64,000 bases of DNA from Rhexocercosporidium sp. MPI-PUGE-AT-0058 (Eukaryota > Ascomycota > Leotiomycetes > Helotiales), in the NCBI GenBank assembly GCA_020746875.1, contig JAGTJL010000001.1:4092001-4156000 (forward strand), in the 5' to 3' direction. This document shows positions 17,564-60,100 of the stretch, in pieces. The translations under genes were made by a program, and so were the position numbers. Each line of letters starts with the position of its first letter. Position 1 is the stretch's first letter. The notes under the pieces are model-generated. The model was not told where the DNA came from. It did not search any database and saw only the letters and a list, made by a program, of their open reading frames with translations.

Positions 17564-19059
17564 ATGTTCAAGCTCGCACGAAGCAGGCCCTTTGCGGCTG
17601 CCCTGAAGCCAAGCAAAGTAAACAATCCCCTGGGACCTAAAAAATCCGCTCCTGACCAGCAAGTTGCTAACAGCTCCAGGTCTACTCACCATCGAGATTA
17701 GCTGGTGTTGCACAACAAAAGAGAGCTTTGAGCATACACGAGTACCTTTCTGCGGACCTCTTAAGACAGGTATGCGATTCGATGGCTGTAGGATGGATGT
17801 GAAGCTTATATAAAACAGTATGGCATTGGTGTTCCCCAAGGCTCAGTTGCTACAACTGCTGCTGAAGCTGAAGCCATCGCGAAGAAGATCGGCGGAGATG
17901 ATATGGTTATCAAGGCACAGGTTCTTGCTGGTGGACGAGGAAAGGGCACATTCGACAATGGGTTGAAAGGAGGTGTCCGCGTTATCTACTCTCCAACAGA
18001 GGCCAAGATGTTCGCAGACCAGATGATCGGACACAAGCTTGTCACGAAGCAAACGGGTGCCCAAGGACGTCTCTGCAACTCTGTGTACATCTGCGAGCGT
18101 AAATTTGCCCGTCGCGAATTCTACCTGGCAATTTTGATGGATCGTGGATCCCAGGGGCCAGTTATCGTGTCCTCATCGCAGGGAGGTATGGATATTGAGA
18201 CTGTTGCCAAGGAGAACCCAAGCGCCATCACCACTACCTACATCGATATTCACAAGGGTGTTACTGATGATATTGCACGAAAGATCTCAACCGATCTAGG
18301 TTTCAGCGAGCAGTGTATCGAGGATGCTAAGGACACTATCCAGAAGCTCTACAAGATCTTCATGGAGAAGGATGCTACTCAAATCGAGATTAACCCTCTC
18401 TCTGAGACGTCCGACCACAAGGTCCTCGCAATGGATGCCAAGCTTGGATTCGATGACAATGCTGAGTTCCGTCAAAAGGAAATCTTCTCATGGCGCGATA
18501 CCACCCAAGAGGATGCTGATGAGGTCAAGGCTGCTGAGAGCGGCTTGAACTTTATCAAGTTGGGAGGTGATATTGGCTGCCTAGTTAACGGTGCCGGTCT
18601 TGCTATGGCCACCATGGATATCATAAAGCTGAACGGAGGAGAACCAGCCAACTTCCTTGATGTTGGTGGTGGAGCTACTCCCCAAGCCATTCGTGAGGCT
18701 TTCACCCTCATCACCAGTGACCCTAAGGTTACCGCTATCTTCGTCAACATTTTCGGAGGTATCGTTAGATGTGATGCCATCGCTCAAGGTCTGATCAGTG
18801 TGGTTGAGAGCATGAACCTCAGCATCCCAATTATCGCGAGATTGCAGGGGACGAACATGGAGGCCGCACAGAAGTTGATCAACGATGCTGGTCTCAAGAT
18901 CTTCTCTATCGATGATCTACAAAATGCTGCCGAGAAGGCTGTGCAGTTTTCGAAGGTCGTCAAGATGGGTATGTCCTACCCTTTACTTTCCATGACGATC
19001 GCTAACAATGAACAGCTCGTGACATTGACGTGGGAGTTGAATTCTCTCTTGGTATTTGA
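17564..19059 (+). CDS. LSC2: Succinyl-CoA ligase beta subunit, mitochondrial
   Basis: TCA-cycle enzyme of the mitochondrial matrix that converts succinyl-CoA to succinate with nucleoside triphosphate formation, paired with an alpha subunit encoded elsewhere. Four exons are inferred: 17564-17617, 17680-17769, 17819-18968 and 19016-19059, all in phase, giving 445 residues. Residues 1-35 ([18 protein letters not shown]...) are Arg/Ser-rich without acids, a mitochondrial presequence. Mature sequence begins near [12 protein letters not shown]. An ATP-grasp fold follows, with [14 protein letters not shown] (nucleotide loop) and EINPLSE (metal ligands). The C-terminal ligase domain carries [30 protein letters not shown] (split here for reading as GLAMATMD and [10 protein letters not shown]) and [10 protein letters not shown]. 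The last exon supplies the ending [14 protein letters not shown] usual in fungi. Confidence 0.96.
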
Positions 19060-49505: not shown

Positions 49506-49832
49506 GACAGCAGACTGGGAGGAAGAGGGGGAACTCCGGGCAGATTTGATTTCTGAGCGAGCGAGCGACTGCTTACCCGTTTGCGTTACTGATAGCGTGT
49601 TACTTGCTTTCCATTTTTAGAACATTTTGCGTTGGTAGGCCAGTCTGAAATTAATACATTGAATATTCAACCGCTAATGCAAATACTCCCAACTCCCGAA
49701 TGTTACGTGCTTAAAATTCATCTATCCTTTTCGGCAGCTGCATCGATCTGTAGTGGTACAGCATCGCTCGTTCGCAACCATTCACCATTGAATGCATTGA
49801 TGAGCCAATTATTTAGTTCTACGAGCTGTTAG
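49506..49832. other. Convergent intergenic region
   Basis: 327 bp between two converging genes. It is AT-rich with no recognised element. Confidence 0.5.
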
Positions 49833-52550
49833 CTATACCCCATCTTTGTTGGCATTTGCGATTGACTCACTATCGTAAACAATCCTGTTGGCATTGTGGA
49901 AGTATATTCCATGATCACTGTCAGGGAAAACGTGGACATCGTAATTCTCGACGCCGGCTAGATCCAGTCTGTCCAATAGGGTCAGGGTGTTTTGCATGTG
50001 AACGTTGTCGTCTGCAATTCCATGCATAACCAAGAATCTGACATTCTGATGCAATGCAGTCATGTTACTGATAGTCGAGTTGTCATATCCACCCGGATTA
50101 TGTTGAGGTGTGTGCATATATCTTTCGGTGTAGATGGAATCGTAAAATCTCCAATCCGTGACAGGCGCGACAGCCATTCCGTAGGAGAAGGTCTGTCCAG
50201 CGTCTTGCTCGAGAGTCTTCAACGTCATGAACCCACCGTATGACCAACCCCAAATAGCCATTCGGGAAGCATCAACGTACTTCTTCTTGGCCCATATTTT
50301 GGCAGTTTCGATTTGATCGCGAGCTTCGTAATATCCGAGATTGCCACGAATAATCGTTCGAGCCTTTCTTCCGATGAATCCAGTACCACGGCCGTCGACC
50401 GTGACGACAATGTAACCAAGGTTCGCAGCCACATAGGCCTGAAAGTCAACGCTGAAAGTTTTCGTTACAGTCTGAGACCCTGGTCCGCCGTATAGGTAGA
50501 AGAGCACAGGGTACTTCTTCTTCTCATTGAAGTGCGGTGGTCTTCTTTCGACGACTTGGAGCTCAAACCCATCAATGTTCACTGTTGAGAAGATCTTGTG
50601 GGGCAATTCATATTTCTTGGCCATGTCTGCAAGTCCCAGATTCTCTTCAATGGCTTGCGTATAGTGATCAGAATTGCTAGGTGTGCTGATCACCTGTTGC
50701 CATGGGATGTTTGGTCCGTCATAATCCAACAGAGCATAGGCTGCACCGCTTGAGAAGGAGACACCATAATGACCTTCCTTGGAAGTGTCGGTAAGGGGTT
50801 TTAGGTCCGTCCCGTTGAGGAATACACTGTAAACGTGGCGTTGGATGGGGGATTCCTTTGTTGCAACGAAGTAGACCAGATTTTTCTTCAAGTCAACAGC
50901 TGAAGGTGCATCGACGACCTCCCAGTTACCAGATGTAAGCAATACTGGCGTCGGATTATCCAAGGGAGTGAAGTATCCAATATGGTCGTAGTTCTCATGA
51001 ATGACGGTATCGATGTAGCCGTCCAATGGACGACCGTTTTGTGGATCTGCTGGAACGTATTTGGTCTTCTGAGATACCTCGAACCACCCCCCATCAAGTT
51101 TCTGAACATCTTCAGTTCGCACCGTCTCCCCAGTTCGAGTGGCGACATCAACAAGGACAACTCGAAGAACATCGCTCTCTCGATTTGTTTCTCGGATTAG
51201 TGCTTTGCCAGTTGATCCAGCCCAAACTACTTCGGTAATGAGCAGATCATTTGGCGCAAAAGATCCCGCAATCTTGACTTCGAAAACGTCGCCCTTCGCA
51301 ACATCATAGAACTGAAGGTCGACGGTCGGATTTGGGGCACCAGCTTTAGGATATTTGATCTCTCTAACTTCCGGATAGTTCTCCTCGCCGGGTGCTGGTT
51401 GGACTCCACTAGGTCGAGAAACGAAGTATTGAATGGGATATTCTGGCACCTCAGACTCGTTGGTACGCAGAAATGCGACGTATTTGCCATCTTCAGCCCA
51501 CCATGTTGCGCTATTGGCTTGGAAAACTTCCTCCTCGTATACCCAATCAGGGACACCGTAGAACAGGTTTGGACCACCGTCTGTAGTTATTTGGGCAACC
51601 TTCGTATCAGATAGCTTGCGGAGGAAGAGGTTGTTATTTCTCGTGAACACCACGGCATCGCTCTGTGGGCTCCAGCTAGCCAATTGTATCCTCACATCCG
51701 GATTCGCGGGGTCCAGAGCCTCCGCAGATTGTGTCTCAACATCGAAGATCCAGTATTTCGCATAGAAGGAGTGTCTCCAGTTCGATTGGTAGTCGGTGGC
51801 GATGAGAACCTTCTTCAAGTCCTTGCTAGGAAATACTTTGCTGGGAGAATGTGACTGGTCTCCAACACTGAATCTCCCACTTTTCATCAAAGTCTTTGTC
51901 CCCTGAGTGCCTGCTTCCGTACTGGTCCCTCTAATATCTTCGACAACCAAGTAGTCCTTTCCAGCAGCATTATGTTCGAGTAGCAGCCCATCCTCTCCAT
52001 TTGCGCCCTCTATCCAGCTGATACCATGTTTTGTCGCCCTCCAAGACCCGTCCATGACTTGGTCCAGAGTGACTTTCTTCCCAGTCCCTGTTGTCGCAGT
52101 TGCAGCAGGATCGTGAGGTTTCGAGGAGACGTGTCGGTATGATTGTCGTCCTAGGAATACAACCAGGGCAAGCACCCATGCACCAATGAACACTCCGCCA
52201 ACTATCCACAGTAATCGTCTGAACTTCCTGTCTACTGTCTTCCCGGTCGCATTTTTCAAAAAGGGTCCAGTCTCGAGATCATAATCATCTTTCTCATCAT
52301 CATCGTGCGAGCTAGTCGCATGCTCGTTGTCCGCGTATCCTCTCGACTCGCTCCTCGGAGGAGGGAATTTGGGAGTGACCATTGTCCTTTTCTCGTCTTC
52401 AGCTTCCACCCGTTGACCAATGCGCTCAAATACCAGGCTCGTCGTCGATGCAGAGGAAATGGAATCTTCGGACTTGCGGCTAGACTCGAGGGGGATGAGG
52501 TCTGTTGTATCGTTGCTGTGCCCGGCCATGATCGCCGATAAGGGTTTCAA
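49833..52550 (-). CDS. dapB: Dipeptidyl aminopeptidase B (S9B, type II membrane)
   Basis: Serine peptidase that removes X-Pro/X-Ala dipeptides in the vacuole or late Golgi. It is a single exon of 905 residues, the usual length for fungal DapB. The cytosolic N-terminus (residues 1-110) is Ser/Asp-rich. One signal anchor follows at about residues 112-134 ([20 protein letters not shown]). The beta-propeller region includes [20 protein letters not shown], with the double-Glu motif that binds the substrate N-terminus. The catalytic domain has [13 protein letters not shown], the Ser elbow [10 protein letters not shown], the Asp in [12 protein letters not shown] and the His in [10 protein letters not shown]. 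Several N-x-S/T sites lie in the luminal part. The next ATG (residue 8, [11 protein letters not shown]) is an equally possible start. Confidence 0.95.
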
Positions 52551-55957: not shown

Positions 55958-56379
55958 GTTGGTGTTGCGGGGAAGAACAAGGCATCTTCGTTCTTCCCTT
56001 CGATTGTGGTTTGGAGGACTTGAAGGAGAGGGTTGAAATTTCTGGATGGTTTCTCGGCGCTGTACATTTGGAATGCACATCTCAACCACTGAGCCTGCTA
56101 GCTCGTAATGGATCTCTTTGTCTTCAATTGCAGTAGCGGAATTAGACAAATCCTTGATGAAAGACAGCTAGATAGCAATAATAATGCTTCTAATGACTGG
56201 TTGGCCAGTGAAGTGAATCGAAACCCCTACGATCATATCCGACTTCTTCGTCTTCAGCCCCCACTTTTGTCAACGAATCACATGTCGTACAACTACTCAA
56301 ACACCTGGGCTGAGCTTGAAAATTTTTGTGCCTAATAAGTAACGAGATAACAGCCTTTGAGCATCATCAATCACATGAG
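55958..56379. other. Intergenic upstream of tRNA gene
   Basis: 421 bp between the F-box-like gene and the tRNA gene. Short frames on both strands lack protein character. Confidence 0.45.
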
Positions 56380-56395
56380 GCCCGCTTAGCTCAGG

Positions 56396-56447
56396 GTATG
56401 TTTGGTCATCTTCAGCGTGTTCGATACAGCGTCTAACAGCATTTCAG
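56396..56447 (+). other. Spliceosomal-type intron inside the tRNA D loop
   Basis: 52 nt starting GTATGT and ending CAGCATTTCAG, with a CTAAC branch-like sequence at 56432-56436. Length and all three signals match the mRNA introns of neighbouring genes in this window. Removal gives the D arm GCTC-AGGGGTA-GAGC, a normal form. The boundaries carry a 7-bp direct repeat CAGGGTA (56392-56398 and 56445-56451), as expected for insertion of an element with a target-site duplication. Confidence 0.65.
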
Positions 56448-56467
56448 GGTAGAGCGCATCACTTGTA

Positions 56468-56477
56468 TCTACAATCA
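56468..56477 (+). other. Canonical tRNA intron (3' of position 37)
   Basis: 10 nt (TCTACAATCA) between A37 and A38 of the anticodon loop, the normal nuclear tRNA intron site cut by the tRNA splicing endonuclease. A one-base shift of the boundaries is possible. Confidence 0.75.
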
Positions 56478-56533
56478 ATGATGAGGTCGCTAGTTCGAAT
56501 CTGGTAGTGGGCAGAGACGTCTGTTCTTCCTCC

Positions 56534-56538
56534 TTTTT
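56534..56538 (+). terminator. RNA polymerase III terminator
   Basis: A run of five T on the plus strand, 20 bp after the tRNA discriminator base; TTTT also follows at 56543. Confidence 0.7.
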
Positions 56539-57166: not shown

Positions 57167-60100
57167 TTATATAGCGCCTGCACCACGAAGGAGATTCACG
57201 ATATCGAAATAGCCTCCTCCTGCTGCTGCTTGGAGTGCTGTTCGTCCCTCCTTATTCGGCTCCGCCGCTGCATTAACGTCGGCCTTCTCCTGAAGCAGCC
57301 GCTCTACAATAGCGAGGTGGCCTCCTCCGGCTGCTGCTTGGAGTGCTGTTCGTCCACCCCAGGGCGCCGCCGCTGCATTGACGTCGGCCTTCTCCTGAAG
57401 CAGCCGCTCTACAATAGCGAGGTGGCCTCCTTCGGCTGCTGCTTGGAGTGCTGTTCGTCCATCGTCCTTCGTCGCCGCCGCTGCATTGACGTCGGCCTTC
57501 TCCTGAAGCAGCCGCTCTACAATAGCGAGGTGGCCTCCTCCTGCTGCTGCTTGGAGTGCTGTTCGTCCCACCCAGGGCGCCGCCGCTGCATTGACGTTGG
57601 CCTTCTCCTGAAGCAGCCGCTCTACAACAGCGAGGTGGCCTCCTCCGGCTGCTGCTTGGAGTGCTGTTCGTCCATCGTCCTCCGCCGCCGCTGCATTAAC
57701 GTCGGCCTTCTCCTGAAGCAGCCGCTCTACAACAGCGAGGTGGCCTCCTCCGGCTGCTGCTTGGAGTGCTGTTCGTCCACCGTCCGCCGCCGCTGCTGCA
57801 TTGACGTCGGCCTTCTCCTGAAGCAGCCGCTCTACAACAGCGAGGTGGCCTCCTTCGGCTGCTGCTTGGAGTGCTGTTCGTCCACCGTTCGCCGCCGCTG
57901 CTGCATTAACGTCGGCCTTCTCCTGAAGCAGCCGCTCTACAACAGCGAGGTGGCCTCCTTCGGCTGCTGCTTGGAGTGCTGTTCGTCTACCGTACGCCGC
58001 CGCTACCGCTGCATTAACGTCGGCCTTCTCCTGAAGCAGCCGCTCTACAACAGCGAGGTGGCCTCCTCCTGCTGCTGCTTGGAGTGCTGTTCGTCCATTG
58101 TACGCCGCCGCTGCATTGACGTCGGCCTTCTCCTGAAGCAGCCGCTCTATAATAGCGAGGTGGCCTCCTCCGGCTGCTGCTTGGAGTACTGTTCGTCCAC
58201 CCCAGGGCGCCGCCGCTGCATTAACGTCGACCTTGCCTGTCTCGAGTAGCAGCTGGAATATGGCCTCGTGCCCTCCCTGAGCTGCCCATAAGAGTGGTGT
58301 CCGACCGATACTGTCCTTGGCATCGACGTCGACCTTGCCTGTCTCGAGTAGCAGCTGGAATATGGCCTGGTGCCCTCCCTGAGCTGCCACTAACAGTGGT
58401 GTCCGACCGATACTGTCCTTGGCATTGACGTCGACCTTGCCTGTCTCGAGTAGCAGCTGGAATATGGCCTCGTGCCGTCCTTCAGCTGCCTATAAGAGTG
58501 GTGTCCGACCGATACTGTCCTTGGCATCGACGTCGACCTTGCCTGTCTCGAGTAGCAGCTTAGCTACCGCCTCGTGCCCTCCCTCAACTGCCCACGATAG
58601 CGGTGTTCGGCTATATTGGCTATCCTGCAAGTCCGGATCAATACCATCCTTTGCAAGTAACAGTTTCACCGCCGGATCGTACCCATTCCCTGCGACCCAA
58701 GACAGCGGTGTTAGACCATATTGGCCTTTTAGTATGTACTTATACTCTTCTCGATTTGTTATCTCGTAGCGCTCTATTGCTTCTCGAAGTCTCTCTTCTG
58801 CCTTTCCATACTCTTTCAAGTCTCCTAATATTAGTGCAACATTCCATATGCTTGTCGCCTTGTCCATGTGATCTCCGAGCTCTGCTTTCAAATGCTGGTG
58901 TACTTGAATATTTTTCTCCCAGCTTCCTATATCTTCCTGGTCTTGCGAGTCTTCTGGCAGATCTTCCCAGTCCCAGACGAGCAAGAAGTCACGCGAGAAA
59001 TGTAATGTTGATTTCGAAACTTCTGGTTGGCCAAAGCTTCCACTCTCGTTTAGAGGGCTGGCTGAAATCACGACTATAGTAAAGTAGTCCCCGCATAACC
59101 TAATAATTGCAGGCTTTAGCGCTCCTTCCAGAAGACATACGACGTCACCCCTTCGGACAGATTTCGCTGACACTTGAAGAGACCAATCCCTCGAGGTCCA
59201 AGCTGTACTTTTTGACGTAATGTTAACGCTCTGTCCGTTGTCTGTTCTAACTGAGGATAACTGGCCAAGAATGCAACCCTTGCCCTTGATCACCGCCTTT
59301 GCGCCGATAGCTTTCACGAAAACAGCTGTACCGAGAACGAACCTGACAAGTCGCTCGAACAATTCTTCCCACAAGATCGTGTAATCAGGCTGCAGTCCAG
59401 CCTTAATAGGATCGTCGGAGCTCATACCAAGCAAGGCGTATACCTTATCACGAGGGTTAGAAGCTTGGCGGGAATGGAACATATCTACTAGCTCAGCTAA
59501 AGAACTTATTTTCAAGGAGTATCTTTCCTGGGAACTTGTTGTATATTTTGGTCGAAGGCCAGCTCGTTCAATCAAGTAAGTTAATGAAGGAAGACTTCGT
59601 AAAGCAGGAAAAGAGGTATAGGAAAGCCTCTGTGAAGTTCGCAGTGATTTCAGTCCTAGGCAGAACGCATATCCATCAATCTCCGTGGAACCATATTTTA
59701 TGACGACATGTCGAGCTGCGGCAACCTCTTGAACGACCTAAAAGAATTGCGTTAATATTGTCTTGCTGTTTTGATTGAACGTCTTCTCTTACCCATATCC
59801 GCTGGAACCACTCTCGTTGAAGCAAGTGAAAAATTGCTTCTTCGTTCACTTTCTCATTCAAGCCTTCAGTAGACTCCTTATAGGCAGCACGCTGTATATC
59901 CTCGAGTGCTCCATCTACATTACCTACCGTCTCCCCAAGCCAAACAAGCACACGGTGCGCTTTGCTATAGATTATTGCCATAAGCTGAACTTGTTGACCT
60001 TGCTCCTTCAAGTCTTCCTGGTTGATACAGATAGCATCCACCCATATGATTCGCTCCAGAGAGCGATCTCGAAGACGCAATAGCGCTTCGTGAAGGTTTG

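Follow-up and report, generated by a model that had tools for sequence, protein, structure and literature searches.

We find that the tRNA-Thr(UGU) gene at 56380-56513 on the forward strand of the window (the whole 64,000-nt stretch of DNA analysed here) consists of three exons and two introns, the first of which lies in the D loop and carries the signals of an mRNA intron. Judged from its sequence, the gene very probably works and holds a U2-type spliceosomal intron, which would be removed by the spliceosome from a pre-tRNA made by Pol III; the same genome has at least 32 introns of this kind, in 28 tRNA genes. Nuclear tRNA introns are described as lying after position 37 and being cut out by a dedicated endonuclease, and to our knowledge tRNAs are not thought to use the spliceosome. 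The introns reported here resemble the canonical (37/38) introns in interrupting nuclear tRNA genes, and differ from them in that the canonical ones have one usual position and are removed by endonuclease and ligase.

The first-pass annotation had proposed a tRNA-Thr(UGU) whose D loop holds a 52-nt insert bearing spliceosome-type signals (GTATGT, CTAAC and TTTCAG), precise removal of which would leave a tRNA, together with an additional ordinary intron of 10 nt in the anticodon loop; direct reading and ARAGORN bore out each of these points (Table 1). Given the unspliced sequence 56380-56513, ARAGORN returned no tRNA, and with 56396-56447 taken out it returned tRNA-Thr(tgt) with a score of 110.9. 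The Rfam tRNA model aligned to the unspliced gene over model positions 9-63 only, at 17.1 bits against a cut-off of 29, and neither ARAGORN nor Rfam reported a tRNA when the intact window was the input, because the insert breaks both models. Group I and group II self-splicing introns were considered as an identity for the insert and rejected, given that it measures just 52 nt and that no Rfam family reached its own cut-off in the window. The element AGTTCGAATCT lies in the T arm, which has no interruption, and we take it to be the B box from general knowledge of Pol III promoters.

Table 1. Positions of features in the window and, in the last two rows, in the split U6 gene (numbered within locus L141).
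Feature	Position	Strand	Basis
Exon 1 of tRNA-Thr(UGU): acceptor 5' strand, D stem, start of D loop	56380..56395	+	read directly, ARAGORN
D-loop spliceosome-type intron, 52 nt	56396..56447	+	ARAGORN score 0 to 110.9 on removal
GTATGT, 5' splice site	56396..56401	+	read directly
CTAAC, branch-point-like	56433..56437	+	read directly; CTAAC in 15/32 such introns
TTTCAG, 3' splice site	56442..56447	+	read directly
Exon 2: remaining D arm through anticodon loop, anticodon TGT	56448..56467	+	ARAGORN
Ordinary anticodon-loop intron, 10 nt	56468..56477	+	ARAGORN; ends placed by eye
Exon 3: anticodon stem 3' strand, variable loop, T arm, acceptor 3' strand, discriminator	56478..56513	+	ARAGORN
AGTTCGAATCT, presumed B box	56492..56502	+	sequence
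TAATAAG, TATA-like element starting 47 nt upstream of the tRNA, 6/7 to AAATAAG	56333..56339	+	motif
TTTTT, Pol III terminator-like run 20 nt downstream of the tRNA	56534..56538	+	sequence
mRNA intron, succinyl-CoA ligase beta gene, 62 nt, GCTAAC..CAG	17618..17679	+	spliced alignment to P0126
mRNA intron, succinyl-CoA ligase beta gene, 49 nt, without YTRAY	17770..17818	+	spliced alignment
mRNA intron, succinyl-CoA ligase beta gene, 47 nt, GTATGT..GCTAAC..CAG	18969..19015	+	spliced alignment
mRNA intron, dipeptidyl aminopeptidase gene, 52 nt, GTGAGT..GCTAAC..TAG	49819..49870	-	spliced alignment to P0002
U6 intron 1, GTAAGT..ACTAAC..CCAG, 50 nt	L141: 1474-1523, directly before CAATTTGAAACGATACAGAGA		by eye
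U6 intron 2, GTAAGT..GCTAAC..ACAG, 49 nt	L141: 1558-1606, within GCATGGC/CCCTGCAC (slash marks the junction)		by eye

Across the source genome assembly (62.7 Mb in 60 contigs), we identified 32 spliceosome-type introns in 28 of 86 resolved tRNA loci. Loci were collected with the Rfam tRNA model (58 matches, 49 above the cut-off, with 63 of 2658 candidates scored) and with B-box and T-run patterns, the matches of which were picked for analysis by eye (39, 16 and 23 of 26, the remaining three being already in the set; for one pattern search the loci were taken among the matches listed, of 124 in all). A total of 96 loci, the window included, was given to ARAGORN. At each locus, intervals with a GT donor, a YTRAY motif ending 3-35 nt before the intron end and a terminal AG were removed, one or two per trial, and ARAGORN was run on the remainder. 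Such motif-defined removal restored a tRNA or raised the score at 27 loci, 26 of which scored 0 unspliced under the same settings, the other being L033, which rose from 110.3 to 116.8; one more locus, L066, was added with a relaxed filter (spliced score 108.3). Under a wider setting in which an anticodon intron may reach 80 nt, L045, L053 and L062 were called unspliced as other tRNAs (104.7, 100.5 and 106.2), and their spliced scores lie above these calls (111.8, 118.9 and 109.0). Two removals tied in score at L045 and at L106, and there the pick was made by motif.

Of the 96 loci, 85 could thus be resolved, and spliceosome-type introns were present in 28 of these; the other 11 were left out as not settled (L037, L054, L061, L069, L072, L074, L078, L082, L084, L100 and L101). 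Among the latter, the tRNA-Gln(CTG) gene L054 offers a sole motif-like removal, a poor fit that scores 105.0 and places the 3' site immediately after the branch motif. A further 41 loci, not tRNA-like by eye, were checked later, and motif removal restored no tRNA in any of them; ARAGORN identified L095 as a tRNA-Gly(CCC) gene free of spliceosomal-type introns and found no tRNA in the other 40. L095 is counted in the 28 of 86 and not in the promoter and terminator counts below, which cover 84 loci. The ARAGORN labels of L068 (SeC) and L112 (Ala) were reread from their loops as Leu(CAG) and Ser(GCT), and among the 57 genes without such introns four (L049, L065, L073 and L077) have low scores and doubtful labels. 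The census, which lacks Asn, His, Phe, Tyr and Val among other isotypes and is biased by the way loci were found, gives counts that are a lower bound, and its proportion of one third is not an unbiased rate, because it draws on the scored candidates and listed matches specified above.

The introns are spread over the whole tRNA. By our own placement the D arm holds the most (ten), followed by the acceptor stem together with positions 8-9 (nine) and the T arm (seven), while the anticodon arm and the variable region hold three each. Ordinary introns co-occur in 19 of 27 interrupted genes. Four genes (L059, L104, L110 and L112) have two spliceosome-type introns each. L104, a tRNA-Gly(UCC) gene at G000:C23:812980-813400, carries an ordinary intron as well, making three, and its paralogues L102 and L103 have one spliceosomal-type intron and none, respectively. 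Genes with two or three introns contrast with the statement, in an excerpt of a paper from 2021, that a eukaryotic tRNA gene can have no more than one intron (PMC8450103).

All 32 introns begin with GT, and their 5' site is GTAAGT in 16, GTAAGA in four, GTAAGC in four, GTATGT in two (the two Thr(UGU) genes described here) and another sequence in six. Branch motifs are CTAAC (15), CTAAT (six), CTGAC (four), TTAAC (three) and others (two), with none in two introns; YTRAY is present in 30, and in all of those the distance from the branch A to the 3' end is 10-15 nt. The 3' ends read CAG in 22 introns, TAG in eight and AAG in two. Lengths have a median of 53.5 nt, 30 introns falling within 50-59 nt and the remaining two measuring 66 and 89 nt. 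Since the filter itself demanded GT, AG and YTRAY, it is the preference for GTAAGT, the narrow branch distance, the narrow length range and the paralogue comparison below that are informative. For comparison with mRNA introns, a scan of the window by motif for intervals of 45-64 nt yielded 26 against about 24 in shuffled sequence, no clear excess, and mRNA introns were therefore placed by homology, with GT..AG boundaries only permitted. Four were placed in this way, three of them containing GCTAAC, in genes for a dipeptidyl aminopeptidase 94% identical to an Oculimacula yallundae protein and a succinyl-CoA ligase 96% identical to proteins of Rhynchosporium agropyri and Hyaloscypha variabilis. 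These identities indicate that the DNA probably comes from a helotialean ascomycete. The possibility that the tRNA introns form an introner-like family was rejected, as BLAST of intron against intron gave matches of 8-14 nt only, many of which are splice motifs.

The boundaries of the introns were examined independently of the motifs. Deletion of every interval of 40-100 nt at the 23 single-intron loci (237,234 intervals) placed the motif-defined interval among the top-scoring ones in 15 of the 23, against 115 of the 237,234 intervals overall; at the other eight loci, the window Thr gene among them, a different deletion scored higher. Independently of ARAGORN, limits come from paralogues that lack the insert and share the mature sequence, which are present for Glu-CTC (L079), Gly-TCC (L103), Ile-AAT (L004) and Ser-GCT (L039). 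Presence and absence between paralogues bounds eight inserts, and with the motif not required a GT..AG placement fits all eight and is the sole placement in five; the script gave no placement for a ninth insert, which interrupts the acceptor stem of L059 and stands outside this comparison. Under a strict rule of GTRNGT..CTRAY..YAG, 9 of the 1,790,320 window intervals of 47-60 nt on both strands qualify, corresponding to a chance of about 2.5e-4 for a match with 3 nt of slack either way at both ends, and 18 of the 32 tRNA introns conform to it.

Splicing by the spliceosome ordinarily goes hand in hand with Pol II transcription, and several of the inserts interrupt the A or B box or precede the A box. 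Both points speak for an alternative in which the introns are spliceosomal and the tRNA is processed from a capped Pol II precursor; a Pol II transcript had also been raised as a possibility by the first-pass annotation. The signals flanking the genes, however, are those of tRNA genes without such introns. An AAATAAG-like element (at least 6/7, 20-65 nt upstream) precedes 45 of the 57 tRNA genes without such introns, compared with 5.6% of random stretches. In 13 genes the first intron is inserted no later than nt 12 and shifts the A box, or most of it, about 50 nt downstream; the element is at its usual distance from the 5' exon in 11 of these 13 and from the displaced A box in one. It is also found in 10 of the remaining 14 interrupted genes. 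The transcription start thus appears to be fixed ahead of the 5' exon. At least four consecutive T residues lie within 50 nt downstream of all 27 interrupted genes and of 55 of the 57 others, against 13.7% of random stretches. We infer that the upstream element and the T-run terminators together fit transcription by Pol III. Avoidance of T4 runs inside the introns is not clear (2 of 32 against 14.8%).

A further argument against a Pol II precursor comes from a U6 snRNA gene of the same genome (L141:1448-1655, on G000:C1 near 767328), which by eye and by alignment contains two introns of the same spliceosomal type (Table 1). In fission yeast, an mRNA-type intron is spliced from the U6 RNA, itself a Pol III transcript, according to an excerpt of PMC10484740. 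We therefore regard a Pol II origin of these tRNAs as quite unlikely. Two other U6-related loci were noted in the genome: L140:1501-1609 (G000:C12:3467522-3467630) is a second U6-like gene, intronless and diverged in sequence, and L142:1501-1555 (G000:C1:868279-868333) is a fragment corresponding to the final exon of the L141 gene and its T run, and starts approximately at the exon boundary. An insert of about 50 nt is absent from SRP RNA and from the 24 5S rRNA matches listed (22 above the cut-off, spanning 118-122 nt, with 47 of 3014 candidates scored), so not all Pol III genes are affected.

The inserts might instead be ectopic introns of the tRNA endonuclease, recognised through bulge-helix-bulge (BHB) structures as in Cyanidioschyzon and archaea; an excerpt of PMC4090602 records non-canonical tRNA intron positions in nucleomorphs and a red alga. 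Pairing at the junctions speaks against this. The full central 4-bp helix forms at none of 31 spliceosome-type junctions (0.5 expected), and near pairing, with at least three of the four central pairs, occurs at four, compared with 3.6 expected from re-dealing, which is the level of chance; among canonical introns of the same genome, full pairing is seen in 4 of 57 and near pairing in 24 of 57. Such an origin would also leave GT..YTRAY..AG without explanation, and the introns do not lie at the eukaryotic 37/38 position, being in the D loop in the window gene and over five regions among the 32. An endonuclease origin is accordingly very unlikely. Chance-level BHB pairing, introns of the same kind in a U6 gene and the spliced U6 of fission yeast make the major spliceosome the best candidate for the removal of these introns.

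The first-pass annotation had likewise considered a dead gene copy, and two tRNA-Gly(GCC)-like loci (L061 and L069) suit an explanation by dead or dying copies with random insertions, their 5' halves being changed with the B box and T run intact, so that by eye they look decayed. The Thr(UGU) genes do not follow this pattern. A search of the genome with the window gene revealed one other copy, also split, on contig C56 at 78% identity. After splicing, the two mature sequences are identical at 72 of 72 positions; their D introns, at the same site, agree in 29 of 55 alignment columns, making them about as diverged as the flanks (35 of 61 positions agreeing upstream and 24 of 60 downstream). No uninterrupted tRNA-Thr(UGU) lies within BLAST reach, because the spliced query matches two places only, both from nt 16 on. 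Similarly, each of the four tRNA-Ala(AGC) genes found is split in the T loop, the more diverged fourth gene (L118) at the same site as the others, and no uninterrupted copy was found, BLAST matching at three places over nt 1-57 only. Split genes are also identical to unsplit paralogues when mature, and removal at the splice signals gives whole tRNAs, as it never does for decoys: none of 592 put through the same procedure (400 random window pieces, 96 reversed and 96 wrong-strand loci) yielded a tRNA. Dead copies are therefore highly improbable as an account of these genes. The probability of an assembly or contamination artefact is negligible, as the interrupted genes lie on many contigs, their inserts differ from each other and some share their mature sequence with uninterrupted genes of the same assembly.

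Returning to a spliceosomal intron in a working Pol III gene, we envisage that Pol III would transcribe the Thr gene from a start set before exon 1 by the upstream TATA-like element and would terminate at the T run. Its ends and branch site would mark the short intron for the spliceosome, which would excise it from the pre-tRNA, whereupon the tRNA could fold and have its ends trimmed, and the ordinary anticodon-loop intron would be cut out last by the tRNA endonuclease. For the genome as a whole, we think it likely that spliceosomal introns have invaded nuclear tRNA genes in all arms, with recent gains still visible as presence or absence between identical paralogues, that tRNA-Thr(UGU) and tRNA-Ala(AGC) can be supplied only if the major spliceosome acts on Pol III transcripts, and that some pre-tRNAs need both splicing systems.

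Parallels exist for other structural RNAs. mRNA-type introns occur in the nuclear rRNA genes of ascomycetes, which are transcribed by Pol I, and a title from 1993 names an mRNA intron in the 18S rDNA of deuteromycetes; these likewise sit in non-coding structural RNA, although in rRNA rather than tRNA. The introns of fungal U6 genes, found in this genome too, share with those described here a small structured Pol III RNA as host, the GT..CTAAC..AG signals and a length of about 50 nt. U6, however, acts within the spliceosome, and reverse splicing is the presumed origin of its intron, near the catalytic nucleotides, according to an excerpt of PMC10484740, whereas tRNAs are no part of the spliceosome and are hit in every arm. 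As of 2017, no small structured RNAs other than U3 and U6 were known to be interrupted often; the introns of fungal U3 snoRNA are normal spliceosomal introns but lie almost only in one 5' stem-loop, and U3 is not a tRNA (PMC5832005, in excerpt). Ectopic introns of nucleomorphs, Cyanidioschyzon merolae and archaea occupy the D, anticodon and T arms, as here, and in archaea several may occur per gene, but in archaea and C. merolae recognition is through BHB motifs, which are unsupported here (PMC4090602 and PMC8450103, in excerpt). The nucleomorph and Cyanidioschyzon cases are listed as exceptions in an excerpt of PMC4090602, with Cyanidioschyzon splicing ascribed to BHB motifs. Topic searches of open-access PMC, a collection outside which lie most subscription papers and all bioRxiv preprints, brought up no description of nuclear tRNA genes with spliceosomal introns, as judged from the search listings.

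In this fungus, then, tRNA production appears to require the machinery that splices mRNA. If so, translation would be tied to the spliceosome, and uncapped Pol III transcripts would be a potentially broad class of spliceosome substrate. Identical tRNA genes with and without an intron of about 53 nt in one genome also offer an unusually clean system in which to study intron gain. ARAGORN under the census settings called only one of the 27 interrupted loci unspliced; tRNA finders miss split genes, and the tRNA sets of related fungi may therefore be undercounted.

Three minor observations were made alongside. One of the loci left out of the census, L037 (G000:C59:2214997-2215152), is tRNA-Gly-like, was called a tRNA under the wider ARAGORN setting only and by eye has a 71-nt anticodon-loop insert starting GTGTGT. 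The five tRNA-Lys(CUU) genes found (L019, L020, L023, L025 and L028) are directly followed by a CAAATCCCGAGG-like sequence able to pair with the acceptor 3' strand CCTCGGGC. Finally, window positions 57212-58594 contain tandem arrays of 105- and 102-base units that by eye encode ankyrin-like repeats in an ORF on the reverse strand; opposite this ORF, the other strand has a long open frame too.
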